Shown here piece after piece: positions 5,037-41,555 of a DNA stretch of 64,000 nucleotides. A program made the translations under genes and the position numbers. Below the pieces are notes generated by a model. It ran no database searches. It was not told where the DNA came from and saw nothing but the letters and a program-made list of their open reading frames with translations. Position 1 is the first letter of the stretch. The number at the start of each line of letters is the position of its first letter. The stretch comes from Achromobacter pulmonis (GTDB taxonomy: Bacteria > Pseudomonadota > Gammaproteobacteria > Burkholderiales > Burkholderiaceae_B), in assembly GCF_902859765.1 (NCBI RefSeq), contig NZ_CADIJV010000009.1, forward strand, positions 1-64,000. Direction: 5' to 3'.

Positions 5037-5134
5037 GGCGGTCTCCGGATGACATTGCTGGGGAAATTAAGTTGCTGTAGTGTAGCAATAAATTATCGTT
5101 TTACAATAATTTTTTATCCTGAAAAAGGAAAATC

Positions 5135-6928: not shown

Positions 6929-6991
6929 GGAGTGACGCAAGGATACAGGGTGACGCATCCGCTGCGCACCCCGCATCCAGGATGGCTGCCA

Positions 6992-7594
6992 TTACAGCAA
7001 GTGGCAGATCATCGCCACATGCGCCTCGCGCCGTTCGGGCAGGTTGAGACGCTCGTCCGGTCCCGGCAGCATTGCCATGAAGATGGCATGCACCACCGGC
7101 GACAGCAGCAGCCAGGGGTGCCGCAGCGCCGGGCCATCGCCGCACAGGCCGCGCTCGCGGGCCAATGCCAGCAATTGCGCGATATCGGCCAGATGCGCGT
7201 CGACGGTCGCCTGGCGCCAGCGTCGCGCCAGGTGCGGCACGCGCGCGCTCTCGGCCAGCAGCAGCCGCATGGCGGTAATCATGGCCGGATTCGCCAGGCT
7301 GGCATGGAGGTGATTGACGATACGCTCGGCCAGTTGACGGGGCGTGTCCGACCCGTCAACCAGGGCGCGGGCATCGATCCGCGGCGGACTCAGATAACGC
7401 GCCAGCAGGGCTTCGAACACCTCTTCCTTGCTGGCGAAATGCGCGTACAGGCCGCCTTTGGACAAACCGGCGCGCAAGGCGATGTCATCCATCCGTGCGC
7501 CGGCATAGCCGGCGGCCGAGAACTCCTGCAGCGCGGCGTCAAGAATCTGCTCGACGCGCACGGTCGGAGGCAGACGCAAACGTTGCGTGCTCAT
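6992..7594 (-). CDS. TetR/AcrR-family repressor of the efflux/PHA cluster
   Basis: A 200-residue TetR-type repressor. The N-terminal HTH is clear (ILDAALQEFSAAGYAGARMD, then LRAGLSKGGLYAHFASKEEV), and a helical ligand domain follows. I chose the ATG at 7594 (MSTQRLRLPP); the frame upstream of it (to 7651) would run into the operator region. It is divergent from the phaC / NodT / HlyD / RbbA / YhhJ / phasin / phaB cluster. A palindrome of the usual TetR/AcrR type lies between them at 7657-7670. Autoregulation and repression of the rightward cluster are the expected roles, by position. Confidence 0.87.
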   Translation of the reverse strand: MSTQRLRLPPTVRVEQILDAALQEFSAAGYAGARMDDIALRAGLSKGGLYAHFASKEEVFEALLARYLSPPRIDARALVDGSDTPRQLAERIVNHLHASLANPAMITAMRLLLAESARVPHLARRWRQATVDAHLADIAQLLALARERGLCGDGPALRHPWLLLSPVVHAIFMAMLPGPDERLNLPERREAHVAMICHLL

Positions 7595-7656
7595 CACCAC
7601 TGCTCCCTGTGCGAATCGACGCGTGGCCATGCCGCGCGCCGACCCCTCCATTAAAA

Positions 7657-7670
7657 ACCGACCGGTCAGT
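7657..7670. promoter_or_regulatory. TetR-type operator palindrome
   Basis: ACCGACCGGTCAGT is an inverted repeat with one mismatched pair (its reverse complement is ACTGACCGGTCGGT). It lies between the TetR gene and phaC. The pattern of a CCGG-centred palindrome next to a divergent TetR gene is common for AcrR-like repressors. It sits 63 bp before the TetR start. Confidence 0.6.
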
Positions 7671-7677
7671 CGTTATC

Positions 7678-7691
7678 TTGATCCTGATCAA
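7678..7691. promoter_or_regulatory. FNR/ANR-type box (TTGAT-N4-ATCAA)
   Basis: TTGATCCTGATCAA matches the FNR/ANR consensus TTGAT-N4-ATCAA in all ten defined positions. Its centre is at 7684.5, which for a class II activated promoter would put the transcription start near 7726, downstream of the first possible phaC start codon (7718). So either FNR represses here, or translation starts further downstream than 7718. Confidence 0.55.
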
Positions 7692-7717
7692 GGAGAGCCC
7701 AGGAGGGCGGCGGCACA

Positions 7718-24044: not shown

Positions 24045-25454
24045 ATGAAACGCTACGAACGGCTGACCGAAGAAATCACCGCCTCGATCCTGTCAGGGCT
24101 GCTGCGGGCGGGCGACCGCCTGCCCTCGGTGCGCCAGACCAGCGCCAGCCGGGGCGTCAGCCCGTCGACGGTGTTCAAGGCCTACTACCTGCTGGAAGCG
24201 CGCGGCCTGATCCGCGCGCGCGACCGTTCCGGCTACTACGTGCTGCGCGACCCGCAGGCCGCGCTGCCCGAACCCGACGATCTGTCCAGCGCCGCCGCCG
24301 GCCGCCACCCGGTGGACGTCAGCGACAACGTGCTGCAGGTGCTCAACGCCACCTTGCGGCGCGATATGCTGCCGTTCGGCTCCGCGTTTCCCAGCCCATC
24401 GCTGCTGCCCTATGGCCGGCTGGCGCGCTTCATGGCGGCCACCGTGCAGCAACTGGACCCGTGGGGATCAATCGACGACCTCAGTCCCGGCGACGCTGCG
24501 CTGCGCCGCGCCATCGCCTTGCGCTACCTGGCCGACGGCCTGTCGGTGCCGGTGGACGACATCATCATCACCAACGGCGCGCTCGATGCGCTCAACTTGT
24601 GCCTGAGCGCGGTCACGCGGCCCGGCGACGCGGTGATCGTAGAATCGCCCACGTTCTACGCCGCCCTGCAATCGCTCGAACGCAACCAGCTGCACGCCAT
24701 CGAAGTGGCCACGCATCCGCGCGAAGGCATCGACCTGCAGGCGCTGGAACAGGCCATCGTTCAGCACCAGCCGCGCGCCTGCTGGCTGATGACGACTTTC
24801 CAGAATCCGCTCGGCAGCCTGATGCCCGAGGCCAAGAAGGAGGCGCTGGTCAAGCTGCTGACGCGCCACGGCGTGGCGCTGATCGAGGACGACGTCTACG
24901 GTGAGCTGTATTTCGGCGCCAACCGGCCGCGGCCGGCCAAGGCCTTCGACACCGACGGCATGGTGATGCACTGCGCCTCGTTCTCGAAGACGCTGGCGCC
25001 GGGCTACCGCGTCGGCTGGGTCGCGGCCGGGCGCTACACCCGCGCCATCATGCGCAACAAGCTCACCACCAGCCTGGCCACCGCCGCGCCGACGCAGGCC
25101 GCCATCGCCGCCTACCTGGCGCAAGGCGGCTACGACCGCCACCTGCGCCAATTCCGCCAGACGCTGGCCCTGCAGCAGGGCGAAATGCTGCAAGCGGTGG
25201 CGCGCTACTTTCCCGAGGGCACGCGCGCCACGCGGCCGCTGGGCGGCTACTTCACCTGGGTCGAACTGCCCACGCGCATAGACACCCTGCGCCTGCACCG
25301 CGCGGCGCTCGGCCACGGCATCAGCATCGCGCCGGGGCCGCTGTTCTCGCCATCCGGCGCGTTCGGCAATTTCCTGCGGCTCAACTACGGGCATCCCTGG
25401 AACGACGCGATGGAACAGGGCATGGCGACATTGGGCAAACTGATGGCGACATGA
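24045..25454 (+). CDS. MocR-type PLP-dependent GntR regulator
   Basis: A 469-residue fusion regulator. Residues 1-70 are a GntR winged helix (LTEEITASILSGLLRAGDRL, then PSVRQTSASRGVSPSTVFKA). Residues 105-465 are a fold-type I aminotransferase domain with the PLP lysine at Lys315 in CASFSKTLAPGYRVGW and the conserved YFTWVELP. MocR proteins use PLP and an amino ligand to regulate, not to catalyse. It starts 25 bp after the small oxidase protein; its target may be elsewhere, since the neighbours do not form an obvious PLP pathway. It is convergent with the FmdB gene. Confidence 0.9.
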   Translation: MKRYERLTEEITASILSGLLRAGDRLPSVRQTSASRGVSPSTVFKAYYLLEARGLIRARDRSGYYVLRDPQAALPEPDDLSSAAAGRHPVDVSDNVLQVLNATLRRDMLPFGSAFPSPSLLPYGRLARFMAATVQQLDPWGSIDDLSPGDAALRRAIALRYLADGLSVPVDDIIITNGALDALNLCLSAVTRPGDAVIVESPTFYAALQSLERNQLHAIEVATHPREGIDLQALEQAIVQHQPRACWLMTTFQNPLGSLMPEAKKEALVKLLTRHGVALIEDDVYGELYFGANRPRPAKAFDTDGMVMHCASFSKTLAPGYRVGWVAAGRYTRAIMRNKLTTSLATAAPTQAAIAAYLAQGGYDRHLRQFRQTLALQQGEMLQAVARYFPEGTRATRPLGGYFTWVELPTRIDTLRLHRAALGHGISIAPGPLFSPSGAFGNFLRLNYGHPWNDAMEQGMATLGKLMAT

Positions 25455-25888: not shown

Positions 25889-27118
25889 TCAAAGGTCTTT
25901 GGCGATGGGCATGTCCATGCCACGCTGTATCTGCGGCACCTCGCCCAGCGCATTCGGCTGGATGTCGATCTCGAAGATCTCGGTCGGCAGCCACAACGTG
26001 GCGCAGGCGTTGGGAATGTCCACCACGCCGCTGATATGGCCCTGCACCGGCGCCGTGCCCAATATCGAGTACGCCTGCGCGCCCGAATAGCCGAACTTCT
26101 TCAGATATTCGATGGCATTCAGGCAGGCCTGGCGATAGGCGATGTGCACGTCCAGATAGTGCTGCTTGCCGCCCTCATCGACCGAAATGCCTTCGAAGAT
26201 CAGGTAGTCCTTGTAGTTGGGCGTGATGGGACTGGGCTTGAAGATGGGATTGCGGATGCCGTACTTGGCCATGCCGCCCTTGATGAGCGACACCCGCATA
26301 TGCACCCAGCCAGCCATCTCGATGGCGCCGCAGAAGGTGATCTCGCCATCGCCCTGCGAGAAGTGCAGATCGCCCACGGACAGGCCGCCCCCTTTGACGT
26401 ACACCGGGAAGAACACTCGGGAACCGCGCGACAGATCCTTGATGTCGCAGTTGCCGCCATGCTCGCGCGGCGGTACCGTGCGCGCGCCGGTGGCGGCGGC
26501 GCGATCGCGCTCAGCCCCCTTGAGCTTGCCCATGTGCGCCGTCTTGGGCGCCGGCGGATTGGCCAGGGGCGGAACGCGCTGCGGATCGCTGTCTATCAGC
26601 TTCTGTTCACGCTCGTTCCACTTGTCCAGCAGCGCCTGATCCGGCAGGCAGCCGATCAGGCCCGGATGGATCAGGCCGGCGAAGCGCACGCCGGGAATAT
26701 GGCGCGAGGTCGTGAACATGCCTTCGAAATCCCAGATCGATTTCTGCGCCGAGGGAAAGTGCTCGGTCAAAAAACCGCCGCCGTTGTTCTTGCTGAAAAA
26801 ACCATTGAAGCCCCACAGGCTCTCCTGCTTGGCGCCGATATCCAGCAGGTCCACCACCAACAGGTCGCCAGGCTCGGCGCCTTCGACACCGACCGGGCCG
26901 GACAGGAAGTGCACCGTGGACAAGTCCACATCGCGCACATCGGAGGCATCGTCATCGTTCTTGATCGCGCCGCCGGTCCAGTCGTAGGTTTCGAGCACGA
27001 AATCATCGCCCGGCCTGACCCACGTCGCCATGGGAATATCGGGATGCCAGCGATTGTGCACGCCTTCGTTTTCGTAGGGGGATTGGGCCAGATCGACCTT
27101 GATCAGGGTTTCGGGCAT
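25889..27118 (-). CDS. fmdA: Formamidase
   Basis: A 409-residue cytoplasmic amidohydrolase of the FmdA/AmdA family that splits formamide (and some short amides) to ammonia and the acid. Typical blocks are HNRWHPDIPMATWVRPGDDF near the start, FPVYVKGGGLSVGDLHFSQG and MAGWVHMRVSLIKGGM. Length matches known formamidases (about 407). I chose the ATG at 27118 behind AAAGGAG, not the longer frame that runs into urtE. It lies 28 bp after urtE, so the operon imports urea or short amides and releases nitrogen from them. Confidence 0.94.
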   Translation of the reverse strand: MPETLIKVDLAQSPYENEGVHNRWHPDIPMATWVRPGDDFVLETYDWTGGAIKNDDDASDVRDVDLSTVHFLSGPVGVEGAEPGDLLVVDLLDIGAKQESLWGFNGFFSKNNGGGFLTEHFPSAQKSIWDFEGMFTTSRHIPGVRFAGLIHPGLIGCLPDQALLDKWNEREQKLIDSDPQRVPPLANPPAPKTAHMGKLKGAERDRAAATGARTVPPREHGGNCDIKDLSRGSRVFFPVYVKGGGLSVGDLHFSQGDGEITFCGAIEMAGWVHMRVSLIKGGMAKYGIRNPIFKPSPITPNYKDYLIFEGISVDEGGKQHYLDVHIAYRQACLNAIEYLKKFGYSGAQAYSILGTAPVQGHISGVVDIPNACATLWLPTEIFEIDIQPNALGEVPQIQRGMDMPIAKDL

Positions 27119-27146
27119 GTCATGCTCCTTTGAGATGGACAGCGAC

Positions 27147-27839
27147 TTAGACAGACAGGTATTTGCTGATCGTCTGCTCGTCAACGCGCTCGCGCGGGTC
27201 TTCGTGCACGAAGCGGCCCTTGTCGATCACGATGAGCCGGTCGGCGATCTGCATGGTGAAACTCAAGACTTGTTCGGACACCACAATCGCCAGATGGCGC
27301 AGCTTGCGGATCTCCAGCAGACTGCGGGCGATGTCCTTGATGATGGACGGCTGGATCCCCTCGGTGGGCTCGTCCAGCAGCAGCACGCGCGGATTGGTGA
27401 CCAGCGCGCGGGCGATGGCGAGCTGCTGTTGCTGCCCGCCCGACAGATCGCCGCCACGCCGGCCGCGCATGTCGTGCAACACCGGGAACAGGGCATAGAT
27501 GTCCTCCGGAATGGTGTTGCGCAGCGCCCGCCCGCGCATACCGGTGCGGATGTTCTCTTCGACGGTCAGCGTCGGGAAGATCATGCGGCCCTGCGGCACG
27601 TAAGCCACCCCACTGCGCACGCGCTGATGGCTCTCCAGGCGTTCGAGCGCCTTGCCGTCCAGCGAGATCGAGCCGTGCATGGCGGGCAGCATGCCCATCA
27701 TGGTTTTGAAGAGCGTGGTCTTGCCCATGCCGTTGCGGCCCATCACGGCGACGATTTCACCGGGAGCCACGGCAAGGTCGACACCGTGGATGACCTTGCT
27801 TTGGCCATAGCCTGAGACCAGGCCAGCGATATTGAACAT
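27147..27839 (-). CDS. urtE: Urea ABC transporter ATPase UrtE
   Basis: A 230-residue ATPase of the branched-chain amino acid type. Walker A is GRNGMGKTT, signature LSGGQQQQLAIARAL, Walker B VLLLDEPTEGIQP. The EGIQPSIIKDI wording after Walker B is characteristic of UrtE. It follows urtD by 14 bp and precedes fmdA in the same operon. It energises uptake with UrtD through the UrtBC permease. Confidence 0.95.
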   Translation of the reverse strand: MFNIAGLVSGYGQSKVIHGVDLAVAPGEIVAVMGRNGMGKTTLFKTMMGMLPAMHGSISLDGKALERLESHQRVRSGVAYVPQGRMIFPTLTVEENIRTGMRGRALRNTIPEDIYALFPVLHDMRGRRGGDLSGGQQQQLAIARALVTNPRVLLLDEPTEGIQPSIIKDIARSLLEIRKLRHLAIVVSEQVLSFTMQIADRLIVIDKGRFVHEDPRERVDEQTISKYLSV

Positions 27840-27853
27840 ACTGCCTCCTGGCC

Positions 27854-28597
27854 TCAGTGGCCGAGATAGACTTCAACCACGCGCGGGTCGGACTGCACCT
27901 TGTCCATGCTGCCCTCGGCCAATACCCGCCCCTGATGCAGCACCGTGACCTTGTGCGCGATGTTCTTGACGAACTCCATGTCATGCTCGATCACGATGAG
28001 CGACCGATTGCGGCTGATTCGATTGAGCAGGTCGGCGGTGCGTTCGCGCTCGGACACGCTCATGCCGGCCACCGGCTCGTCCAGCATCATCAGCTCGGGT
28101 TCCTGCATCAGCAGCATGCCGATCTCCAGCCATTGCTTCTGGCCATGCGAGAGCAGCTCTGCCGAGCGGTCGAGTTGATCGGCGAGAAAGATCTCCTCGG
28201 CCACCTGCTCGACCCGTTCGAGCACCGCCGGGCTGCGTCTGAAGGTCAGCGCGCCCAGCACGCTGCGCCCGGCCGGAAACGACACTTCCAGGTTTTCGCG
28301 GACGGACAGGGTTTCATAGATGGAGGGCGTCTGGAATTTGCGGCCGACCCCGGCGCGCACGATTTCATACTCGGCCAGGCCAGTCAGTTCCGTGTCCTTG
28401 AAGCGGATGGAGCCGGCGGTGGCCTTGGTGCGGCCGCAGATCAGATCCAGCAGCGTGGTCTTGCCGGCGCCATTGGGGCCGATGACCACGCGCAGCTCTC
28501 CCTGATCGACATACAGGTTGAGGTCGTTGACGGCGACAAAGCCGTTGAACGAGACGGTCAGGCCTTCGATGTACAACGCGAACGCTGAGGGGTTCAT
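27854..28597 (-). CDS. urtD: Urea ABC transporter ATPase UrtD
   Basis: A 247-residue ATPase. Walker A is GPNGAGKTT, and the signature region reads LLSHGQKQWLEIGMLLMQEP, with the Ser-His-Gly variant common in UrtD. Walker B is LMMLDEPVAGMSV. Its ATG overlaps the urtC stop by 4 bp. The KDTELTGLAEYEIVRAGVGR block is close to UrtD proteins from other betaproteobacteria as I know them. Confidence 0.95.
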   Translation of the reverse strand: MNPSAFALYIEGLTVSFNGFVAVNDLNLYVDQGELRVVIGPNGAGKTTLLDLICGRTKATAGSIRFKDTELTGLAEYEIVRAGVGRKFQTPSIYETLSVRENLEVSFPAGRSVLGALTFRRSPAVLERVEQVAEEIFLADQLDRSAELLSHGQKQWLEIGMLLMQEPELMMLDEPVAGMSVSERERTADLLNRISRNRSLIVIEHDMEFVKNIAHKVTVLHQGRVLAEGSMDKVQSDPRVVEVYLGH

Positions 28598-29715
28598 GCT
28601 GCCTCCGTGGCGCCATCGGCCTGACGGCGCAATGCCTTGCGTGCCTGGCGTTTCTGGGTGTATTGGTTGTACAGGCCGGCCAGCCCGTTGGGAAAGGCCA
28701 TCACGACCGCAATGAACAGGCCGCCCATCAGGAACAGCCAGAGCTGCGGAAAACTCTCGGAGAAATAGCTCTTGCCGAAGTTGACCAGCAGCGTGCCGTA
28801 GACCGCCCCCAGCAGGGACAGGCGGCCGCCGACCGCGGCGAAGATGACCATTTCGATGGAGGGCACGATGCCCACGAACGAAGGCGACATGAAGCCGACC
28901 TGCAAGGTGAACATGGCTCCGCCTATGGCCGAGAAGACGGCGGCCACGCAGAAGACGAAGACCTTGAAGCTGGCGACGTCGTAGCCCGAGAAACGCACCC
29001 GTTCCTCTTTGTCGCGCATGGCCATCAACAGCTTGCCCAGTTTGGACGAGAGCAGGTAACGGCCGAACAGGATGCAGGCGAACAGCAGCGCGCCGTTGAC
29101 GAAGTACAGGATCAGCCGGGCGCTGTCGGTGCGGATATCCCAGCCCAGCAGCGTCTTCAGATCAGTGATGCCATTGACGCCGCCGGTCCAGCCCTGCTGG
29201 CCGATGATGAGCACCGACAGGATCAGCGCCACGGCCTGCGTCACGATGGCGAAGTAGGTGTCGCCGACGCGGCGCTTGAACATGGCCACGCCCAGGATCA
29301 ACGCCAGCAGGCAGGGCAGCACCGGCACCGCCATCAGGGTGAACCAGAAGCTCTTGAAGGGCACCCAGAACCACGGCAACGCGGTCAGCTGGTTCCAGTC
29401 CATGAAGTCCGGGATGCCGGGCGTGGACTGAATCCGGGTAGCCTCGGGCGTCGAGGCTTCCAGCTTCAGGAACATGGCCATGCAATAGCCGCCCAAGCCG
29501 AAGAACACTCCCTGGCCCAGGCTCAGGATGCCGCCATAGCCCCAGCACAGCACCAGGCCCAGCGCGACAAAGGCATAAGAAAGGTATTTGCCGACGAGAT
29601 TGAGCCGGAAGACGTCCAGGCCCAGCGGAAACACCACAAAGAGCAGCAGCGCCAGAATCGCCAGCCCGGCCAGCCCTTCGCGCCCGCCCACGACGTTGCG
29701 AAAGAATTTCTGCAT
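28594..29715 (-). CDS. urtC: Urea ABC transporter permease UrtC
   Basis: A 373-residue permease with about ten hydrophobic helices. The GYGGILSLGQGVFFGLGGYC motif near residue 58 is typical of LivM/UrtC permeases, and the UrtC-type extracellular insert (PGIPDFMDWNQLTALPWFW) is present. The basic C-terminal tail (QKRQARKALRRQADGATEAA) is cytoplasmic. It sits 13 bp after urtB. Confidence 0.95.
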   Translation of the reverse strand: MQKFFRNVVGGREGLAGLAILALLLFVVFPLGLDVFRLNLVGKYLSYAFVALGLVLCWGYGGILSLGQGVFFGLGGYCMAMFLKLEASTPEATRIQSTPGIPDFMDWNQLTALPWFWVPFKSFWFTLMAVPVLPCLLALILGVAMFKRRVGDTYFAIVTQAVALILSVLIIGQQGWTGGVNGITDLKTLLGWDIRTDSARLILYFVNGALLFACILFGRYLLSSKLGKLLMAMRDKEERVRFSGYDVASFKVFVFCVAAVFSAIGGAMFTLQVGFMSPSFVGIVPSIEMVIFAAVGGRLSLLGAVYGTLLVNFGKSYFSESFPQLWLFLMGGLFIAVVMAFPNGLAGLYNQYTQKRQARKALRRQADGATEAA

Positions 29716-29728
29716 GATGCGCGGCCTC

Positions 29729-30646
29729 CTACTTGCGTACCTTGATGCTGAACAGGCCTTGCGGGCGCAGCATCAGAATGATCACGATGGCCGACAGTGT
29801 CAGCACCTTGGCCATCGAACCCGTCATGAAGAACTCCGAGATCGATTGGGTCTGCGCGATGACAAAAGCCGAGGCGATGGTGCCGAAAAGACTGGCCGCG
29901 CCGCCGAACACCACGGTCAGGAAGGTGTCGACGATATAGAGCGAGCCGCTGGTCGGACCGGTGGAACCGATGGTCGTGAAGGCCGCGCCGGCAATGCCGG
30001 CGATCCCGCAACCCAGCGAGAACGTCACGCGGTCCACGCGCTTCGTATCGATACCGACCGCGCCGCTCATGGCGCGGTTTTGCACCGTGGCGCGCACGTG
30101 CAGGCCCCAGGTCGACCGATACAAGGCCAAGAGCAGCGCGCCGGTCAGCAGAATGCTGATGGACATGACGAACAGGCCGTTGATGGGGATGTCCACGCCG
30201 TCCAGCGGTTGCCAGGAGCCCATCAGCCAGTCGGGCAGCGTGGGGCTGACTTCACGCGGGCCGAACAGCGAGCGCAGCGTTTGTTGCAGCACCAGCGACA
30301 GGCCCCAGGTCGCCAGCAGCGTATCCAGCGGCCGGCGGTAGAGATGGCGGATCATCAGCCACTCGACCAGCCAGCCCAGGCTGAAGGTCACGGCGAAGGC
30401 CAGCATGATGGCGACGAAGAAGTAGGCCGGCATCAGGCCGGGCGCGTATTGCTGGACCAGTTCGGAACAGAGATAGGTGCAGTAGGCGCCCACCGCCAGG
30501 AACTCGCCATGGGCCATATTGATGACGCCCATCTGGCCAAAGATGATCGCCAGGCCCAAGGCCATCAGCAAGAGCACGCTGAAGACCGACAGACCGTTGA
30601 AGCCCTGCATCAGCAGGATGGCCCCGAGATCGGAGAAGGATTCCAT
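29729..30646 (-). CDS. urtB: Urea ABC transporter permease UrtB
   Basis: A 305-residue permease of the LivH/UrtB family. It has a short N-terminus, unlike the long periplasmic form of some UrtB proteins, and about eight helices. Typical parts are MGVINMAHGEFLAVGAYCTY and the VFGGAASLFGTIASAF region near the end. It follows urtA after 54 bp that contain a stable hairpin, which would allow more binding protein than permease to be made. Confidence 0.94.
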   Translation of the reverse strand: MESFSDLGAILLMQGFNGLSVFSVLLLMALGLAIIFGQMGVINMAHGEFLAVGAYCTYLCSELVQQYAPGLMPAYFFVAIMLAFAVTFSLGWLVEWLMIRHLYRRPLDTLLATWGLSLVLQQTLRSLFGPREVSPTLPDWLMGSWQPLDGVDIPINGLFVMSISILLTGALLLALYRSTWGLHVRATVQNRAMSGAVGIDTKRVDRVTFSLGCGIAGIAGAAFTTIGSTGPTSGSLYIVDTFLTVVFGGAASLFGTIASAFVIAQTQSISEFFMTGSMAKVLTLSAIVIILMLRPQGLFSIKVRK

Positions 30647-30700: not shown

Positions 30701-31963
30701 TTACTGATAACCCTTGGGGAAGGGATCGGGTTTGATCAGCTCCGGGGTTTCGAAGATCACGTCGAACTGGCCATCCTTGCGAATCTGGCCGATGCGGGTC
30801 TTGCTCCACAGGTGGTGGTTGGGGTCGACCTTGACGTAGCCTTCGGGCGCTTCCTTGAATTCCAGCCCGGCCGAGGCGGCGACCACTTTGTCGACATCGA
30901 AGCTGCCGGCCTTCTCCACCGCCATCTTCCACAACCAGGGGCCCAGATAGGCCGCCTGGGTCACATCGCCGATGACGGCATTGGCGCCGTACTTGGCCTT
31001 GAAGGCCTCGACGAATTTCTTGTTGTTGGCGTTGTCCAGGCTCTGGAAGTACTTCATGCACGACCAGAAGCCTTCGGCGTTTTCACCGCCGATGCCCAGC
31101 AGCTCATCCTCGGTCACCGAGATGGTCAGGAGCTTTTGCTTGCCGCTGGTGACGCCGGCGGCCTTGAGCTGTTTGTAGAAGGACACATTGCTGCCGCCCA
31201 CCACCACGGCGAAGACGACATCGGGCTTTTTCAGCTTGATCTTGTTGATCAGCGAGCCGAATTGCGTGTGGCCCAGCGGGTAGTATTCCTCGCCCACCAC
31301 TTCGCCCTTGAGCACGTTCTCGATATGCTTGCGGGCGATCTTGTTCGAGGTGCGCGGCCAGATGTAATCGGAGCCGATCAGGTAGTAGGAGCGCGCCTTC
31401 TTCTCGCGCGCCAGCCAGTCCAGGCTGGACAGGATCTGCTGCGTGGCCTCCTGGCCGGTATAGAAGACGTTCTTGGACTGTTCCAGGCCTTCATAGAAGG
31501 TCGGGTAGTAGAGCAGGCCGTTTTCTTTCTCGAATACCGGCAGGACCGCCTTGCGCGAGGCCGAGGTCCAGCAGCCGAACACGGTGGCGACCTTGTCGCT
31601 GACCAGCAGTTTGCGGGCCTTTTCGGCAAAAGTCGGCCAGTCGGAGGCGCCGTCTTCCTGGATGATCTTGATCTTGCGGCCAAGGATGCCGCCCATGGCG
31701 TTGATCTGCTCGATGGCCAGACGCTCGGACTGAATCGACCCCGTTTCGCTGATGGCCATGGTGCCGGTCGCCGAGTGCAACTGGCCGACCGTGACTTCGG
31801 TGTCGGTAATGGCCAGGCCGGTGGTGTTGATGGCCGAGGTGGCCGGGGCGGCCGCGCGCGACAGCGCCGGTATGCCCAACAGCGGCAGGGAGGCAAAAGC
31901 CAAGGCCAGGCGCCGGCGCGAGGGCAGTTCCGGGGCAGTATCAAAAGGGGGTTTGCCAGACAT
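30701..31963 (-). CDS. urtA: Urea ABC transporter substrate-binding protein UrtA
   Basis: A 420-residue periplasmic receptor of the Leu/Ile/Val-binding fold. The N-terminal signal has a twin-arginine-like run (SRRRLALAFASLPLLGIPAL). The mature part carries UrtA hallmarks: VGQLHSATGTMAISETGSIQ near the start, FGCWTSASRKAVLPVFE and DYIWPRTSNKIA. It is first in the operon urtABCDE-fmdAB and is divergent from the permease-kinase gene. The ligand may be urea or a short amide such as formamide, given fmdA in the operon and no urease nearby. Confidence 0.95.
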   Translation of the reverse strand: MSGKPPFDTAPELPSRRRLALAFASLPLLGIPALSRAAAPATSAINTTGLAITDTEVTVGQLHSATGTMAISETGSIQSERLAIEQINAMGGILGRKIKIIQEDGASDWPTFAEKARKLLVSDKVATVFGCWTSASRKAVLPVFEKENGLLYYPTFYEGLEQSKNVFYTGQEATQQILSSLDWLAREKKARSYYLIGSDYIWPRTSNKIARKHIENVLKGEVVGEEYYPLGHTQFGSLINKIKLKKPDVVFAVVVGGSNVSFYKQLKAAGVTSGKQKLLTISVTEDELLGIGGENAEGFWSCMKYFQSLDNANNKKFVEAFKAKYGANAVIGDVTQAAYLGPWLWKMAVEKAGSFDVDKVVAASAGLEFKEAPEGYVKVDPNHHLWSKTRIGQIRKDGQFDVIFETPELIKPDPFPKGYQ

Positions 31964-32067
31964 CGATGACTCCTCAGTGGATCACGACCAGGGAAACCGA
32001 GCATGCGCGGCACATGCCGCAGCCCGGAGGGTGAGGGCATACTAGGGGCCTATGACGCAGTGCAACA

Positions 32068-32083
32068 TACGTTGATTGACGTA
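32068..32083. promoter_or_regulatory. TACGT-N6-ACGTA operator copy 1
   Basis: TACGTTGATTGACGTA has perfect 5-bp inverted arms. It lies 105 bp upstream of urtA, between it and the divergent permease-kinase gene. Its centre is 52 bp from that of copy 2, about five helical turns. It is the best candidate site for the LuxR-type response regulator at 35521-36429. Confidence 0.6.
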
Positions 32084-32119
32084 GAGGCAGGCCAGCCCCC
32101 CCGGCGTTACAACGGCAAC

Positions 32120-32135
32120 TACGTTCAATGACGTA
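32120..32135. promoter_or_regulatory. TACGT-N6-ACGTA operator copy 2
   Basis: TACGTTCAATGACGTA repeats the palindromic arms of copy 1 and ends 24 bp before the TTG start of the permease-kinase gene. Between it and the ribosome binding site lies a run of seven C (32143-32149). Its position would suit autoregulation of the kinase as well as control of urtA. Confidence 0.6.
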
Positions 32136-32159
32136 TCCCCTACCCCCCCGGAGCCCGAT

Positions 32160-35100
32160 TTGTCAGCCAGCGCGCCTCAACGCATTGTCAAGATCCGCCG
32201 CGACTACAACACCTGGGTCGCCAATGAGACGCTGGAAGACTATGCCCTGCGTTTCACGCCGGTGTCGTTTCGCAAATGGTCGGAGTTCCGCGTCGCCAAT
32301 ACCGCTTTGGGGGCCGTGTCCTTCCTGGCGCTGGAAGCGATCGGCGGCGCGCTGGCGCTGAACTACGGCTTTGTGAATGCCTTCTGGGCCATCATTGCCG
32401 TGGCCCTGGTCACCTTCCTGACCGGCTTGCCGATCGCCTATTACGCCGCGCGCCATGGCCTGGACATGGATCTGCTGACGCGCGGGGCCGGCTTTGGCTA
32501 TATCGGCTCGACCATCACTTCGCTGATCTACGCCTCCTTTACCTTTATCTTTTTTGCGCTGGAGGCGGCCATCATGGCGCTGGCCATCGAACTGGCCACT
32601 GGCTTGCCGCTGTCCATCGGCTATCTCCTGTGCGCCGTGGTCATCCTGCCCATGGTGGCTTATGGCATCACCTTCATCAGCCGGCTGCAGTCGTGGACGC
32701 AGCCGCTCTGGCTGGTGCTGCTGCTCCTGCCCTATGCCTTCATCGCCTTCCGCGATCCCGGAACGCTGGGGGAATTTCTGCGGTTTCCGGGCCATGACGG
32801 CCGGGGCGGCAGCTTCAACCTGCTGATGTTTGGCTCGGCGGTGGCGGTGGCCGCCTCGCTGGTGACGCAGATCGGTGAACAGGTCGACTTCCTGCGCTTT
32901 CTGCCCGAACGCACGGCGGCCAACCGCCGGCGCTGGTGGCTCGCCCTGGTCTGCGCGGGTCCGGGCTGGATCCTGCCGGGCGCGGCCAAGATCCTGGGCG
33001 GCGCCTTTCTGGCCTGGCTGGCTTTGTCGCTGGGCGCGCCGGCCGACAAAGCCGGCGACCCCACCCATATGTATCTGGCGGCCTATACCTATGTGGTCAG
33101 CGACCCCGCGCTCGCGCTGGCGCTGGTGACGGCCTTTGTGGTGGTCTCGCAGGTCAAGATCAATGTGACCAATGCCTATGCCGGCTCGCTGGCCTGGTCC
33201 AACTTCTTTGCCCGCATCACGCACAGCCATCCGGGCCGCGTGGTGTGGCTGGTGTTCAACGTGCTGATCGCCGTGGTCCTGATGGAGATGGGCGTGTTCG
33301 GCGCGCTGGAGCATGTGCTGGCAGTGTTCTCGCACGTTGCGCTGGCCTGGATCGGCGCGCTGGTGGCGGACCTGGTGATCAACAAGCCCCTGGGCCTGTC
33401 GCCGGACCGCATCGAGTTTCGCCGCGCCTATCTGTATGACATCAACCCGGTCGGGGTGGGCAGCATGCTGATCGCCATGACACTCGGCCTGCTGGCCTTT
33501 GCCGGCGTGTTTCCGGGCACCGCGGGCGCGCTGGCGCAGGCGTTGTCGCCCTTCGTGGCCTTGCTGGCGGCCTTTGTCTGCGCGCCGGTGATCGCCTGGC
33601 GCACGCGGGGACGCTACAACCTGGCGCGCACGCCGGTCGACGTCGCCGGATCGGATCACGTCTGTGTGATCTGCGCCAACCGTTTCGAACAGCCGGACAT
33701 GGCCCATTGTCCGGCCTATAACGGCGCCATCTGTTCCTTGTGCTGCACGCTGGATGCGCGCTGCCAGGATCGCTGCAAACAGCAAGGCCGCTTGAAGGAC
33801 CAGGTGCAGGCGGTGTTGGGCCGGCTGTTGCCGGCGCGTATCACGCCGCTGCTGCACAGCCGCCTGGGCCATTACCTCTTGATCGTGGCGGGGATGGGGA
33901 CGCTGCTGGCCGGCATTCTGGGCTTGATCTACTACCAGGAGTACGCCAGTCACATGCGGGCCGGCCTGGACCCCTCGGGTCTGCGGCCCACCTTCTTCAA
34001 GCTGTATGCCGCCTTGTCGCTGATCGGCGGCGTAGCCGCCTGGTGGCTGGTGCTGGCGCATGAGAGCCGGCGCGTGGCGCAAGAGGAATCGGATCGCCAG
34101 ACCCATCTGCTGCTGCGCGAAATCGAGGCGCACAAACAGACCGACGCGCAGTTGCAGCAGGCCAAGGAGGCGGCCGAAAGCGCCAATCTTGCCAAGAGCC
34201 GTTTCATGGGCGGCATGAGCCATGAGTTGCGCGCGCCCTTGAACAGCATCCTGGGTTACGCCCAGATTCTGCAGCGCGACCCGGCCTTGCCGCCGGCGCG
34301 GCGCGAGGCCATCGATGTGATTCACCGCAGCGGCAAGCATTTGATTGGCCTGATCGATGGCTTGCTGGACATTGCCCGCATCGAGGCGGGCAGGCTGAGG
34401 CTGGAGAACAGCGAACTGCGCCTGCCGGAGTTCCTGGAGCAGATCGTGCAGATGTTCCGGCCGCAGAGCGCGCTGAAAGGGCTGACCTTTTGCTACGAGG
34501 CGACGGAACTGCCATCCATCGTGCATATCGATGAGAAGCGGCTGCGGCAGATTCTGATCAATCTGTTGAGCAATGCGCTGAAGTTCACCTCGGCCGGGCG
34601 GGTGTCGATGCGCGTGAAGTCGGCGGCCGATATGGTGCTGTTCGAAGTGGAGGACAGCGGCCGGGGCATACCGGCCGAGGACCTGGAACGCATCTTTCTG
34701 CCCTTTGAACGCAGCTGGGCGGCGGCTGAGCAAGCCGATTCCGGCACCGGCCTGGGCCTGACCATCTGCCGCATGCTGACCGGCATCATGGGTGGCGAGT
34801 TGACGGTGCGCAGCGCGGTCGGCCGCGGCAGTGTGTTTACGCTCAAGCTGTTTTTGCCGGAGGTGCGTTCGCCGCGCAGCGATGCCCGACCCTCGGGGCT
34901 GGTAGTGGGCTATCGCGGAGAGCGGCTGCGGATCCTGACGGTGGATGATCAGCCTTCGCAGCGGCGCCTGGTGCGCGATCTGCTGGAGCCGCTGGGCTTT
35001 GAGGTGCATGAGGCGCCGCACGGCGCGGCTTGCCTGGCCTGCGTGCACACGCTGCGGCCGGCCCTGATATTGATGGACGTCTCGATGCCGGACATGACGG

Positions 35101-35552
35101 GATGGGAAGTGCTGCGGTGCTTGCGCGAAGCGGGCGTGGCCGTGCCCATTGTGATGCTGTCGGCCAATATCCTGGGGCTGGATCCGAAAGACCCGGCGCA
35201 GAGCGGGCATAACGCATTCATCGCCAAGCCGGTGATGTACGAAGACTTGCTCAACCAGCTCGGCAGTTTGCTCAAGCTGGACTGGCAGGTGGCCCAGGTG
35301 GAGGCGGCGCTGCCGGCGGGCGATCTGCACCGGGTGGCGCTGGAACGCGAGGATGCCGAGGCGCTGCTGGAACTGGGGGCCATGGGCTATATCAAGGGCA
35401 TACAGGCCAAGCTGGAAGAAATACAGGGCCGCCGGGCCGAGGCGCGTGAGTTGACGGCGCACCTGCGGGCGCTGGCGGGCGAGTTTCAACTGAGTGAGTT
35501 CAATCAGGTGCTCAAACACCATGTACAGCGTCACCATGCCCACGCCCGATAA
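32160..35552 (+). CDS. NCS1 permease-like / histidine kinase / receiver fusion
   Basis: An 1130-residue membrane sensor. Residues 20-480 resemble an NCS1 nucleobase permease (CodB type; NETLEDYALRFTP, then SFLALEAIGGALALNYGFVN), with about twelve helices. Residues 502-539 hold a cysteine cluster (CVIC, C517, C525, C528, C529, C535, C539). Two further helices follow (about 570-590 and 612-633), then a coiled coil. The kinase has His688 (MGGMSHELRAPLNSILGYAQ), N box (NLLSNALKF), and G boxes (DSGRGIP, GTGLGL). The receiver has Asp929/Asp930, acceptor Asp973 and Lys1023. The C-terminal 80 residues are helical. It starts at TTG behind GGAG. The LuxR-type regulator gene overlaps its end, and urtA is divergent. 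It probably senses a nucleobase, hydantoin or amide; whether it also transports is unknown. Confidence 0.93.
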   Translation: MSASAPQRIVKIRRDYNTWVANETLEDYALRFTPVSFRKWSEFRVANTALGAVSFLALEAIGGALALNYGFVNAFWAIIAVALVTFLTGLPIAYYAARHGLDMDLLTRGAGFGYIGSTITSLIYASFTFIFFALEAAIMALAIELATGLPLSIGYLLCAVVILPMVAYGITFISRLQSWTQPLWLVLLLLPYAFIAFRDPGTLGEFLRFPGHDGRGGSFNLLMFGSAVAVAASLVTQIGEQVDFLRFLPERTAANRRRWWLALVCAGPGWILPGAAKILGGAFLAWLALSLGAPADKAGDPTHMYLAAYTYVVSDPALALALVTAFVVVSQVKINVTNAYAGSLAWSNFFARITHSHPGRVVWLVFNVLIAVVLMEMGVFGALEHVLAVFSHVALAWIGALVADLVINKPLGLSPDRIEFRRAYLYDINPVGVGSMLIAMTLGLLAFAGVFPGTAGALAQALSPFVALLAAFVCAPVIAWRTRGRYNLARTPVDVAGSDHVCVICANRFEQPDMAHCPAYNGAICSLCCTLDARCQDRCKQQGRLKDQVQAVLGRLLPARITPLLHSRLGHYLLIVAGMGTLLAGILGLIYYQEYASHMRAGLDPSGLRPTFFKLYAALSLIGGVAAWWLVLAHESRRVAQEESDRQTHLLLREIEAHKQTDAQLQQAKEAAESANLAKSRFMGGMSHELRAPLNSILGYAQILQRDPALPPARREAIDVIHRSGKHLIGLIDGLLDIARIEAGRLRLENSELRLPEFLEQIVQMFRPQSALKGLTFCYEATELPSIVHIDEKRLRQILINLLSNALKFTSAGRVSMRVKSAADMVLFEVEDSGRGIPAEDLERIFLPFERSWAAAEQADSGTGLGLTICRMLTGIMGGELTVRSAVGRGSVFTLKLFLPEVRSPRSDARPSGLVVGYRGERLRILTVDDQPSQRRLVRDLLEPLGFEVHEAPHGAACLACVHTLRPALILMDVSMPDMTGWEVLRCLREAGVAVPIVMLSANILGLDPKDPAQSGHNAFIAKPVMYEDLLNQLGSLLKLDWQVAQVEAALPAGDLHRVALEREDAEALLELGAMGYIKGIQAKLEEIQGRRAEARELTAHLRALAGEFQLSEFNQVLKHHVQRHHAHAR

Positions 35553-36429
35553 AAACCTCGTCATGCTGGTCGATGATGCGCCGGACAATCTGAAAATGCT
35601 CTCCACCGCGCTGGACGAGGCGGGTTATCAGGTGCTGGTGGCAACCGATGGCCAGTCGGCGATAGAACGGGTGGACTTCGTGGTGCCCGACATCGTGCTG
35701 CTCGATGCGGTGATGCCGGGGATGGATGGGTTCGAGACCTGCGCGCGCCTGAAGGCGCATCCGGCGGCGGGCCAGGTTCCGGTGGTGTTCATGACGGGCC
35801 TGACCGAGCCCGAGCACGTATTGAAAGGGTTCCGGGTGGGCGGCGTGGATTATGTGACCAAGCCGCTGGACCCGGATGTGGTGGTGGCCAGGCTGCAGAC
35901 GCATCTGCGCAATGCGCGCAGCCTGTCGGCGGCCTTCGATGCAATCGATGCGGCGGCGCGTGCCGTGGTGGCGCTGGATGCGCGCGGGCGGCCGATCTGG
36001 AAGACCGGCAAGGCACGGCTCTGGTTGGCGGCGTATTTCGGGTGCGCGGAGGAGGCGGCGGAGCTGCCGGTGCCCTTGGCGGATTGGGTGGCGGGCAATC
36101 TGGCGGCCGGGCCGGCCGCCGCGCCCCTGGAGATCGTCGCCGCGCGGGGCCGCCTGACCTTGAGCCTGTCGGCATCGCGGCGCAGCGGCGAGACCTTGCT
36201 GCTGTTGCAGGAAACGGCGCCCCTGGCGCCGGCCTACGGCCTGACGCCGCGCGAGGCCGACGTGCTGCGCTGGTTGGCCAAGGGCAAGACCAATCGGGAT
36301 ATCGCCGAGATCCTGGGTATGGCGCCCCGCACGGTCAACAAGCATCTGGAACACATCTACGTCAAACTCGGCGTGGAAACCCGCGCGGCGGCGGCGGCGC
36401 TGGCGGTGCGGCAGGGGGAAACGTTCTGA
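35521..36429 (+). CDS. Response regulator with LuxR-type HTH
   Basis: A 302-residue regulator. The N-terminal receiver has the acidic pair in VMLVDDAPDN, phospho-acceptor Asp in PDIVLLDAVMPGMDGFE, and Lys in VTKPLDPD. A middle segment (about 145-235) has PAS-like length without clear motifs. The C-terminal LuxR/FixJ HTH is clear (LTPREADVLRWLAKGKTNRD, then IAEILGMAPRTVNKHLEHIY). Its start overlaps the 3' end of the permease-kinase gene by 32 bp (ATG at 35521, with 35536 as alternative). It is the natural partner of that kinase and the likely binder of the palindromes before urtA. Confidence 0.93.
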   Translation: MYSVTMPTPDKNLVMLVDDAPDNLKMLSTALDEAGYQVLVATDGQSAIERVDFVVPDIVLLDAVMPGMDGFETCARLKAHPAAGQVPVVFMTGLTEPEHVLKGFRVGGVDYVTKPLDPDVVVARLQTHLRNARSLSAAFDAIDAAARAVVALDARGRPIWKTGKARLWLAAYFGCAEEAAELPVPLADWVAGNLAAGPAAAPLEIVAARGRLTLSLSASRRSGETLLLLQETAPLAPAYGLTPREADVLRWLAKGKTNRDIAEILGMAPRTVNKHLEHIYVKLGVETRAAAAALAVRQGETF

Positions 36430-37880: not shown

Positions 37881-38855
37881 TCAGTTCACGGTGGCGCCGG
37901 AATCCTTCACTGCCCGCGCCCAGGCCGCGATCTCCTGCTGGATGAACTCGCCGAAGGCCGCGGTGTGCAGCGTCGACGCCTGCGCCCCTTCCTCCATCAG
38001 GCGCTGCTTGACCGCCGGCGCGGCCAACGCGCCGCTCAAGGCCTCGTTCAGGCGGGCCACCACCGCATCCGGCGTGCCCGCTGGCGCCACCACCCCATGC
38101 CACGACAGGGCCTGGAAACCCGCCAGACCGGACTCCGCCATGGTGGGAATCCCAGCCAGGGCGGGCGAGCGCTGCGGCGAGGTCACCGCCAGCGCCCGCA
38201 GGGTGCCGGCCTTCACGTGCGGCAGCACGCCCGGAATCGTGGTGAACATGAAGTCGATCTGGCCGCCGATCAGGTCGGTGATGGCCGGGCTGCCGCCCTT
38301 GTACGGCACATGCGTGAACTGCAGCCCCGCCTCGCGCTTGAACATCTCGCCGGCCAGGTGGCCCGGCGTGCCGGCCCCGGCCGAGCCCATGTTGATGCGA
38401 TCGCCCTGGCTCTTGATGTAGGCGATCAGCTCCTGCACGCTGTTCACTTTCAGATTGGGGCCGACCACCAGCACATTGGGCACGGTCGCCAGCAACGTGA
38501 CCGGCTTGAAGTCCTTGACCGCGTCGTACGAGATGCGGGAGTACAGCGAGGGATTGATGCCATGGGTGCTGGCGGTCGCCAGCAACAGCGTATAGCCATC
38601 CGGCGCGGCCGACGCCACCTGCTTGGCGGCGATGGTGCCGTTGGCGCCCCCCTTGTTGTCGACCACGATGGTCTGGCCGAGCGATTTGGCGGCCTCGGCC
38701 GCCACCGTGCGCGCCAGGATGTCCGAGGTGCCGCCGGCCGAATGCGGCACCACCAGGGTGATCGGCTTGGCGGGAAACGACTGCGCGTGGGCCGCCGGCA
38801 GGGCTGACACGAGACAGGCGGCGAGCGCCAGGCGGGCAAGGCAATGAGGGAACAT
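37881..38855 (-). CDS. Bug-family (TctC-type) periplasmic binding protein
   Basis: A 324-residue exported solute-binding protein of the tripartite tricarboxylate transporter family. The signal peptide ends near AHAQ (MFPHCLARLALAACLVSALP at the start). The mature start FPAKPITLVVPHSAGGTSDI and the later GTPGHLAGEMFK are family hallmarks. No TctA or TctB genes are adjacent. It lies just downstream of tcuB on the same strand (92 bp), so a tricarboxylate ligand such as tricarballylate or citrate is plausible. Confidence 0.9.
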   Translation of the reverse strand: MFPHCLARLALAACLVSALPAAHAQSFPAKPITLVVPHSAGGTSDILARTVAAEAAKSLGQTIVVDNKGGANGTIAAKQVASAAPDGYTLLLATASTHGINPSLYSRISYDAVKDFKPVTLLATVPNVLVVGPNLKVNSVQELIAYIKSQGDRINMGSAGAGTPGHLAGEMFKREAGLQFTHVPYKGGSPAITDLIGGQIDFMFTTIPGVLPHVKAGTLRALAVTSPQRSPALAGIPTMAESGLAGFQALSWHGVVAPAGTPDAVVARLNEALSGALAAPAVKQRLMEEGAQASTLHTAAFGEFIQQEIAAWARAVKDSGATVN

Positions 38856-38947
38856 GCAAGTCTCCTGAAGAATATTGGAATCGCGGCGCCTTCGAGGGCG
38901 CCGTCATGCGAACGCGTGGGCCCCGCGCGCGGCGGCAGGCAATCGCC

Positions 38948-40153
38948 TCAGTCGGCGCCCGTGCGCAGGGTGTCGGGCTGGCGCTTCTCGATCGACCACT
39001 TCAGCAACGCCGCGCAGCGGTAGATGCCGTGCGCGAACTTGCCGTAAGGCAGGGTCAGGAACAGCGCCATCACCACGCCCAGATGCACCGCCAGCAGCAA
39101 CGCCATGGCGCCGGTATCGCGGCCGGCCAGCAGCGCCAGGCCCGTGGCGCTGGTCAACAGCAGCAAGGCGATGAAGCCCCGATCCATCGGCTTCTGCGCC
39201 GCGTCACCCTGCAACGGGTGGCGCTTCAGGTTCAGCCACAGCAGTCCCGCCGGCCCGATCAACAGGCCGATGCCGCCCGCGGTGCCCAGCAGCACCGGCG
39301 CGCTCCAGAACGGATACGGCGCCTGCTCGCCCAGCAGGTAGTGATAGAGCGTGGCCACGCAGGTGGCGGCAAAGCACAACATGAAGCCGTAGAAGGTAAA
39401 GTGGTGGAAGCGCCGGCGCCACAGCGTAAAGGCGTCGTCGGCGTTGTTGCAGCCCTTCCCATGGCCGCCATCCAGGTAACGCAGGCGCAGCGCGTCGTGC
39501 GCGGCCTCGGCCACCGCCGCGCCGCTGGCCGCCCCTGGGCTGACATCGCGCCAGAAGCGCGCCGCGCCGATGCCAAGCGCCAGCATGGCGAAGCCGAACA
39601 CCGCGCCGAACATCAGCGCCAGCGTGTTGTGCGGAAACACCGCATAGAAATTGCCCGCCAGCGGCGCGTGCCACAGGCCGCCCGTCAGCATCACGGTCAG
39701 GGCCAGGAACAGCGCCAAGGCGGCCGCCGCGGCCAGCGACAGCGTCAGCCCGTTGCGCCGGTACAGCTTGCCCAGCGCCGCCGGGAAGGCGTATTCCGTA
39801 TAGGTCTGCAACCGCACCTTGGCCATGGCCTGCGGCACGTTCACCGCGAACTCGTGCGGCGGCGCGTACTGACAGGCATGCAGGCAGGCGCCACAGTTGT
39901 GGCACAGGTTGGCCAGGTAGTTCAGATCGGCCTTGCCGAACTCCAGGCGCCGGGTCATCGCCGGGAAAACGGCGCAAAAGCCCTCGCAGTAGCGGCAGGC
40001 ATTGCAGATCTGCATGACCCGCGCCACCTCGGTTTCGTCCTGACTGAGGGCGGCGGCGCCCCGGCCATGCCAGCGCACCGGCTGTTCGATCATGGCCGGC
40101 GCCGACTGCGCCAAAGATTCGGCCTCGCGGGCCAGGGTCTCAAGCTGCCGCAT
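38948..40153 (-). CDS. tcuB: TcuB, tricarballylate electron-transfer protein
   Basis: A 401-residue membrane iron-sulfur protein that takes electrons from TcuA-bound FADH2 to the quinone pool. Two [4Fe-4S] motifs are visible: [11 protein letters not shown] and [11 protein letters not shown] (residues about 50-95). Hydrophobic helices follow from about 145 with conserved His residues that could hold heme. Its start overlaps the end of tcuA by 14 bp. TcuB of Salmonella is of similar length and architecture. Confidence 0.9.
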
Positions 40154-41555
40154 GCTGGGCTCCGTTGCGGTGGGTACGTTGAGCGGCGGCGGCGGCGCGG
40201 GTGCCGGCGATACGGCCGAAGGCGGTGCCGATGGACATGCCGACCCCTGCCGTATAGCCCTTGCCCAACACGTTGCCGGCCATCATCTCGCCCGCCACGA
40301 ACAGGTTGTCGCTGGGCACGCCGTCGAAACGCACCGCGGCGGTTTCGTCGACTTTCAGACCCAGGTAAGTGAAGGTGATGCCGGGCCGCAGCGCGTAGCC
40401 GTAGAACGGCGCGGTGTCGATGGGCCGGGCCCAGTGGGTCTTGGCGGGCGCGAGACCCTCGGTGCGGCAGTCGTCCAGCACCGTGTGGTCGAAGGTGCCG
40501 GCGCGACAGGCCTGGTTGTATTCGCGGATGGTGTGCTCGAATGCCACCGGGTCCAGGCCCAGGCGGCGCCCCAGTTCGGGCACGGAATCGGCGGTGACGC
40601 CGGGAAACACCGGCGGCATGAAGCGGCCGACGGCCTTGGCATCAATGATGGAATAAGCGATCTGCCCCGGCTGCATCGCCGTCAGGCGGCCCCAGATGGC
40701 ATAGCGCTTGGGCCAGAAATCCTCGCCCTCGTCGTAGAAACGGCGCGCCTCGCGATTGACCACCACACCCAGCGAGACGCAGTCGATGCGGGTACAGATG
40801 CCGCCGTCGTACAGCGGCGCGCGCGCGTCGATGGCCACGCAATGCGACTGCGACGGATCGCCGATGCGGTCGGCGCCCGCGTCCAGCATGAACTTGAGCA
40901 GCACGCCCTGGTTGTAGCGTGTGCCGCGAATCAGGAAGTTGTCCGCCGGCCATTCGCCGCGCTCGTCCTGGCCCCAGGCCTCGCGCAGCCATTCGCGGTT
41001 GGATTCGAAGCCGCCGGCCGCCAGCACACAGGCGCGCGCCTCGATGCGCTCGGCGCCGATGCGGGCGGCCTTGAAACGGCCGCCCTCCAGTTCCAGCGCG
41101 TCCACCGGCGCGTCATAGCGGATGCGCACGCCCAGGGCCTCGGCGCTGCGGTAATAGGCATTGACCAGCGCCTTGCCGCCGCCCATGAAGAAGGCGTTGG
41201 TGCGGGCCACGTGCAGCGCGCCCGACAGCGGCGGCTGAAAATTGACACCATGGCGCCGCATCCAGCCGCGACAGGTGGCGGACTCGCGGATCACCAGCCG
41301 CGCCAGCTTCTCGTCGGTCTGGCCGCCGGTGACCTTGAGCAGGTCCTGCCAGTATTCCTCTTCCGGATAGGCGTCCACCAGCACGTCCTGCGGCGCGTCA
41401 TGCATGCAGCGCAGGTTGCGCGTGTGCTGCGAATTGCCGCCGCGCCATGCGCGCGGCGCGGCTTCCAGCAGCAATACACTGGCGCCCGCCTCGCGCGCCA
41501 TCAGCGCCGCGCACAGCGCCGCATTGCCCCCGCCTATCACCAATACATCGACCAT
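40140..41555 (-). CDS. tcuA: FAD-dependent tricarballylate dehydrogenase TcuA
   Basis: A 471-residue flavoprotein that oxidises tricarballylate to cis-aconitate. The N-terminal FAD-binding motif is [20 protein letters not shown], and the FRD/SDH-type blocks [14 protein letters not shown] and [17 protein letters not shown] are present. The dinucleotide-binding C-terminal part reads [17 protein letters not shown]. It overlaps tcuB, and a LysR gene lies upstream on the same strand, as in Salmonella tcuRABC, but no tcuC transporter gene follows. Other FAD-type substrates cannot be ruled out by sequence alone. Confidence 0.9.

Follow-up and report, generated by a model that had tools for sequence, protein, structure and literature searches.

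The window analyzed here, a 64,000-nucleotide stretch of Achromobacter pulmonis contig NZ_CADIJV010000009.1, encodes a hybrid histidine kinase that starts with a transporter-like module of the NCS1 type. The kinase is paired with a LuxR-type response regulator, and its gene is divergent from urtABCDE-fmdA, which serve urea and formamide (Table 1). We propose, with a probability of about 0.6, that this protein is a transceptor kinase of the NCS1 type, which would detect urea or short amides, with formamide as the first candidate, and switch on urt-fmd; the proposal is drawn from sequence comparison. The NCS1-kinase fusion is real, widespread, and undescribed as far as we searched.

In the proposed mechanism, the divergent NCS1-type module would be the sensor and its ligand a small amide or ureide; formamide, urea, and short-chain amides are the likeliest candidates. 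A conformational change of the module would be passed through a cytoplasmic Cys-rich segment and an extra helix pair to the HisKA/HATPase core, and the domain make-up suggests that phosphate would reach the LuxR-type regulator either directly or via the internal receiver. From their conservation, co-occurrence, and position, TACGT-N6-ACGTA palindromes between the divergent genes are the predicted binding sites of the regulator, which would activate urtABCDE-fmdA and its own genes; binder and sign of control are predictions alike. If this is true, bacterial formamide and urea use would be under a regulator of its own, one whose DNA site can be read.

A transporter-like module fused to a histidine kinase

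An earlier note on this sequence had described a protein of 1130 residues that joins a module of about 12 helices to a kinase (H688, N and G boxes) and a receiver (D973), next to a LuxR-type regulator and a urt-fmd operon. This architecture is confirmed by the open reading frame (ORF), Pfam, and hydropathy: H688 and D973 are both in place, and the N and G boxes read NLLSNA (at 801) and GTGLGL (at 862). The HisKA, HATPase, and receiver domains and a REC-GerE gene are all present, as in a hybrid histidine kinase with a LuxR-type partner, and UrtA to UrtE and FmdA all score above their respective NCBIfam cutoffs. The starts, TTG (32160) and GTG (35494), are assignments of the ORF caller and are presumed. 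Because whole-protein homologues are common, the kinase fusion is not a chance product. By hydropathy, the first 479 residues contain 12 segments, and two further ones lie at 572 to 590 and 615 to 633, with a 92-residue loop between helix 12 and the extra helices; the loop charges of the module alternate, consistent with an N terminus inside.

The assignment of the module to NCS1, also made in the earlier note, stands at the superfamily level and fails in direct Pfam scans. Residues 1 to 497 of the window protein had no Pfam match up to E 10, not one of 49 family members matched the Pfam NCS1 model (PF02133) at E values up to 0.1, and PDB sequence searches with the module gave no usable match. 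These 49 members are the aligned part of 81 modules (80 loci plus the window). Since the Pfam cutoff is not reached, we do not file the module as a PF02133 member. Profile-profile comparison by hhalign, from sets that exclude L105, L132, L133, and every SLC5 frame of at least 640 amino acids, nevertheless aligned the module with the PF02133 set (21 proteins) over 415 columns with a probability of 94.7% and a pairwise E of 5.8e-8. The probability was 0.44% with SLC5 (PF00474 set, 17 proteins) and 0.27% with UrtC (23 proteins). The NCS1 and SLC5 sets matched each other at 68.45%; SLC5 is therefore a related fold and no blank control. The link to NCS1 is bridged by a stand-alone permease, L167, which the module matches with a probability of 99.88% and which itself exceeds the Pfam NCS1 cutoff (36.4 versus 23.5 bits); permeases linked to 5-oxoprolinase genes matched the module with a probability of 98.75%.

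Like the NCS1 transporters CodB, Mhp1, and MetT, the module has twelve predicted helices and a shared set of residues: F112, G113, G116, D243, and R246 are identical in all seven NCS1 rows of the alignment, and R108 and N338 in six of the seven. A gap in the alignment at transmembrane helix 8 (TM8) obscures the Na2-site residues. Unlike the NCS1 transporters, the module lies below Pfam recognition, is fused to a kinase, and carries E135, Q237, and E240, which are invariant across 22 kinase rows. E135 is common to the kinases, L167, L207, and eight 5-oxoprolinase-linked permeases; Q237 is shared by the kinases and L167 alone, and E240 occurs in no nonkinase row. On a tree of 43 proteins (L211 not included), the 22 kinase modules formed one clade (100/100) that grouped with L167 and eight other permeases (98/96), although the tree has several long branches and its inner placements are uncertain. 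Taken together, the comparisons make it highly probable that the module is a divergent branch of the NCS1 superfamily.

The most conserved stretches measured in the module are residues 100 to 145 (TM3; mean majority, 0.91) and 325 to 360 (TM8; 0.92), the helices in which substrate contacts fall in CodB and Mhp1, as described in PMC9379551. Because conservation is highest there, the module is not drifting, and such a pattern would be surprising in a decaying anchor. By the best tblastn piece, median identity to the window fell from 65% in the module (80 loci) through 57% in the kinase (75 loci) and 49% in the regulator (72 loci) to 41% in the receiver (73 loci).

Beyond what the earlier note had described, the locus contains a Cys-rich segment and an extra helix pair between module and kinase, an FmdB-like ORF, and two intergenic palindromes. 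The segment (residues 502 to 540) has the pattern C-x2-C-x11-C-x7-C-x2-CC-x5-C-x3-C, and all eight Cys are invariant in the 49 members and likewise in a set of 19. In 299 genomes, 42 strong matches to the segment each lay in a frame of 894 to 1247 amino acids, and two weak ones were short fragments. No Pfam match above noise was found for the segment in the 49 members. A PDB search returned short zinc finger stretches (best E, 0.0012 over 14 positions), which we did not take as homology. The position of the segment, after the 12-helix module and before the extra helices, points to a putative cytoplasmic coupler that binds metal or responds to redox state.

Sensor kinases with transporter-like parts are known. 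CbrA is described as a transceptor that combines an SLC5 domain with a kinase domain (PMC13022988, PMC7096432), and CrbR, a LuxR-family regulator, as acting through an imperfect inverted repeat (PMC5715377). The protein in the window resembles CbrA and CrbS in that one chain joins an N-terminal transporter-like module and a histidine kinase, with a response regulator as partner. It differs from these SLC5-STAC proteins in its NCS1-like module, in the Cys-rich segment and helix pair, and in its linked genes, which serve urea and formamide. An SLC5-type fusion like CbrA is ruled out by the profile comparison, and no SSF match was found in Pfam; the full-length Pfam scan of the kinase also gave no STAC match, with no dedicated STAC test made. 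Ks-Amt5, which is reported to bind ammonium and to have lost transport (PMC5764959), similarly reuses a nutrient transporter fold to sense for the histidine kinase to which it is fused, whereas our protein draws on another transporter family and is a hybrid with its own receiver. In the literature examined, histidine kinases with a fused transporter module use either SLC5 or Amt, and an NCS1-type module would add another.

The earlier note considered such a fusion undescribed, and our literature search, which did not extend to most subscription papers, found no description of one either. The word NCS1 is absent from a 2021 kinase review (PMC8534201). A 2026 genome paper mentions a locus where urtABCDE is accompanied by a hybrid kinase and a LuxR regulator, with fmdA close by to judge from its locus tag, and does not analyze it further (PMC13296017); by description only, that locus looks similar to ours. 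GrtK of Burkholderia glumae was considered as an equivalent and set aside, since it is described as a 427-residue kinase with six helices (PMC12918730). As NCS1 structures have been solved, the coupling of ligand to kinase could be tested by design.

Linkage to urea and formamide genes and a shared palindrome

The earlier note had proposed listing genomes with the fused module and their neighboring genes. At E 0.001, the module profile matched 36 of 200 genomes of the order, in 28 of 108 genera, and 57 of 398 genomes of the phylum; five of the 57 (G443, G491, G286, G405, and G318) had partial matches only, and that in G405 sits in a 489-residue frame without a kinase. Absences are soft, as up to three candidates per genome were scored in the phylum and L167 searches and up to 20 in the Cys-segment search. 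Locus counts refer to the best 80 of 582 confirmed loci and so lean toward close relatives. Genes for urt, fmdA, or urease lay near 67 of the 80 loci, or 46 of 53 among loci with wide flanks, and a regulator match was found in 72. Thirty-four loci had urt genes of the window type together with fmdA, nine had this urt type alone with cut flanks, and six had urt and urease. A second urt type was present in 15, urease in two, and urease with the second urt type in one; 13 had none of these.

FmdA matches above 500 bits were found in 25 of the 36 kinase-bearing genomes of the order and in five of the other 164, a line that was chosen after the data were seen and a comparison whose genomes are partly related and so do not count as independent. 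In 23 of these 25 genomes, the match lay on the contig of the kinase and at most 20 kb away from it. Weaker FmdA-family matches are commoner (67 of the 200 genomes in all). Strong urease alpha matches occurred in 33 of 36 kinase-bearing genomes versus 48 of 164 others. At L168 (positions 2156 to 8156), from another class, the gene for a kinase without a receiver precedes genes for a REC-histidine kinase protein and a formamidase, with no urt genes within 14 kb.

Of 44 intergenic regions between urtA and the kinase gene, a set that includes the window and near relatives, 42 carry a palindrome, [TC]ACGT-N6-ACG[TC]A. In the 5.67-Mb host genome, TACGTNNNNTGACGTA has two exact matches, both in the intergenic region of the window. 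The strict motif TACGTYRWWYRACGTA was found in 15 of the 36 kinase-bearing and one of the other 164 genomes (Fisher, 5e-12), while its reversed control was found in one and 10, respectively (P = 0.69); the pattern was chosen after related loci had been viewed and kinship was ignored, so the Fisher values overstate the association. Among 21 strict-motif sites, 18 lay at most 6 kb from a kinase. The distant sites on G171 C26 and G025 C14 and the one in the kinase-negative G183 were treated as chance, since the stretches examined there matched neither urt nor fmdA nor urease at E 1e-20.

A position matrix trained on the 44 regions also found sites at loci of other make-up. They lie 73 to 124 bases before urtA of the second type at L034 (15.8), L068 (10.1), and L069 (10.4), about 1.2 to 1.4 kb before it at L023, L055, L066, and L080 (17.4 to 28.9), and before the kinase in the urease-linked L029, L057, L064, L065, and L073 (14.6 to 24.2). 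With one shuffle per locus as a control, the maxima had a median of 4.8 and reached 18.0, and L068 scores higher elsewhere (11.5) than at urtA; therefore, the weak sites rest on position.

Several further observations weigh against our proposal. Of the 13 loci whose flanking DNA, as far as examined, lacks urt, fmdA, and urease, seven have wide flanks, including two of one cyanobacterium. Nine of the 36 kinase-bearing genomes of the order have neither FmdA above 500 bits nor strong urease alpha within 20 kb, a comparison in which urt was not tested; five of these nine are assemblies of at least 160 contigs. Neither L169 nor L170 shows a match to urt, fmdA, or urease at E 1e-20, and the regulator of L169 is of the HD-domain type. 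The palindrome is missing from L077 and L081, the strict motif from 21 of the 36 kinase-bearing genomes, and any matrix score above 10.4 from the DNA examined at L032, L035, L040 to L042, L045, L049, and L063. With one mismatch allowed, the host has three TACGTNNNNTGACGTA matches versus seven for the reversed control, so that only the exact matches are informative there; three of 100 shuffles of the window reached two matches at one mismatch.

The output named in the earlier note, urea and amide uptake, is supported by the gene linkage and by the palindrome common to the upstream regions of urt and kinase. Very probably, urt-fmd is controlled through this palindrome, and the output side is well supported by computation. 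By analogy with CrbR, we infer that the natural binder of the palindrome is the LuxR-type partner.

In L033, L075, and L078 (Thiotrichaceae and a cyanobacterial record), the module and Cys segment sit on differently built kinases, and the flanking DNA examined contains neither urt nor fmdA nor urease genes.

Candidate ligands

A single strong stand-alone relative of the module was found in the 398 phylum genomes, L167 in G404 (E 1.4e-45), which is 28 to 34% identical to the kinases. Its gene row (G404:C40, 7949 to 12984) comprises the permease, a double CN-hydrolase, a Peripla_BP_5 protein that we take to be AmiC-like, and an AmiR_N/ANTAR protein. L167 is possibly an unstudied amide permease. 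Eight other, more distant permeases (L172 at G000:C12, 6528 to 8000; L209; and L212 to L217) adjoin genes that read by eye as 5-oxoprolinase or hydantoinase parts and may be 5-oxoproline transporters; L172, the one scanned, has no Pfam match. The neighborhoods of the stand-alone relatives thus point to amides and cyclic amides.

AmiC is described as a ligand-binding regulator and AmiR as an antiterminator (PMC13209695). The parallel with the window lies in the control of short-amide use and in the AmiC-like and AmiR-like genes beside L167; unlike the system here, AmiC/AmiR is not a two-component system. In the same source, Pseudomonas veronii is said to use formamide and acetamide as nitrogen sources, and its urtABCDE is suggested to take up formamide. 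NCS1 substrates reach beyond nucleobases, as metformin is carried by MetT according to PMC13390362.

The host genome has no urease alpha match and two FmdA genes, which speaks for formamide rather than urea here, urea carboxylase not having been searched. The second formamidase-family gene is full length (G000:C17:25649-26779). The linkage to urt, fmdA, and urease genes, the co-occurrence with FmdA, L168, the L167 gene row, and the host FmdA genes together argue for a ligand of the amide class, and we consider it fairly probable that the module senses an amide or urea.

The ligands that the earlier note had favored, the classical NCS1 substrates allantoin, hydantoin, uracil, and cytosine, would have the kinase switch on urea and amide uptake in anticipation. 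The NCS1-like module and the 5-oxoprolinase- or hydantoinase-like genes beside distant relatives would fit such a role. Conversely, no catabolic genes for these compounds were recognized among the recurrent neighbors, although no family search was made and several clusters are unannotated, and amidase, AmiC-like, and AmiR-like genes adjoin L167, the nearest stand-alone relative found. In addition, the invariant kinase Glu135 is Gln in three of the seven NCS1 rows. We therefore regard these substrates as unlikely, while cyclic amides are possible ligands given the neighbors of the distant relatives.

Similarly unlikely is the reading that the module is a degenerate membrane anchor and that the cytoplasmic Cys-rich segment senses metal or redox state. 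The invariance of the eight Cys and the confinement of the segment to kinase-sized frames, two weak fragments aside, agree with this idea, but TM3 and TM8 exceed the whole segment (0.77) in conservation, and in a host without a urease alpha match, nickel supply for urease is no reason for such a sensor. Formamidase and urease both release ammonia. Sensing of ammonium or overall nitrogen status rather than of an organic amide, for which Ks-Amt5 provides a transporter-fused precedent (PMC5764959), is nonetheless very improbable, as no Amt match appeared in the full-length Pfam scan or in the 49 modules, and the link to one kind of operon and the two exact host sites argue for a pathway-specific switch.

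A bolder form of the amide-sensing proposal, which we put forward only tentatively, is that the protein is a true NCS1 transceptor. Working by a LeuT-type mechanism, it would import or only bind an amide, whether formamide, urea, or a relative of these. Occupancy would be reported to the kinase through a Cys domain of a new kind, metal- or redox-binding, and one palindrome would control urt, fmd, and ure. If so, this transceptor would be a dedicated bacterial sense organ for amides and urea.

Gene layout of the locus

The FmdB-like ORF, putatively named from reading by eye, follows fmdA in the divergent urtABCDE-fmdA set. A sigma-70 promoter scan of 31900 to 32200 found none. Among the matches listed (the best 80 of 582), the closest named organisms were Achromobacter sp. 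MYb9 and A. ruhlandii, with 98% identity over the module.

Table 1. Features of the kinase locus in the window
Feature	Position	Strand	Basis
Hybrid histidine kinase, 1130 aa	32160..35552	+	ORF; Pfam HisKA, HATPase_c, Response_reg; TTG start assumed
NCS1-like 12-helix module, residues 23-485	32226..33614	+	hhalign vs PF02133 set; 12 hydropathy segments; NCS1-shared positions
Cys-rich segment, residues 502-540	33663..33779	+	Eight invariant Cys
Extra two-helix hairpin, residues 572-633	33873..34058	+	Hydropathy; conservation poor
HisKA with H688	34191..34391	+	Pfam, residues 678-744
HATPase_c	34530..34856	+	Pfam, residues 791-899
Receiver with D973	34932..35258	+	Pfam Response_reg, residues 925-1033
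REC-GerE (LuxR-type) response regulator, 311 aa, overlaps kinase 3' end	35494..36429	+	ORF; Pfam Response_reg and GerE
Palindrome TACGTTGATTGACGTA, 105 bases from urtA ATG	32068..32083	.	Window motif search
Palindrome TACGTTCAATGACGTA, 25 bases before kinase start codon	32120..32135	.	Window motif search
urtA	30701..31963	-	TIGR03407, 537.6 bits (cutoff 492.75)
urtB	29729..30646	-	TIGR03409, 401.7 bits (cutoff 250.3)
urtC	28594..29715	-	TIGR03408, 439.8 bits (cutoff 296.2)
urtD	27854..28597	-	TIGR03411, 375.1 bits (cutoff 304.1)
urtE	27147..27839	-	TIGR03410, 333.2 bits (cutoff 285.8)
fmdA, formamidase	25889..27184	-	NF045496, 763.1 bits (cutoff 500), match from ORF residue 25; true start probably inside ORF
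FmdB-like small Cys-rich protein, 110 aa	25547..25879	-	Read by eye

Two other gene groups were seen in the window. A MocR-type (GntR-aminotransferase) regulator gene at 24045 to 25454 on the plus strand is convergent with the fmd end and scores below the NCBIfam cutoffs shown for named subtypes. At 37881 to 41555 on the minus strand lie the tricarballylate genes tcuB and tcuA and a gene for a TctC-like receptor.

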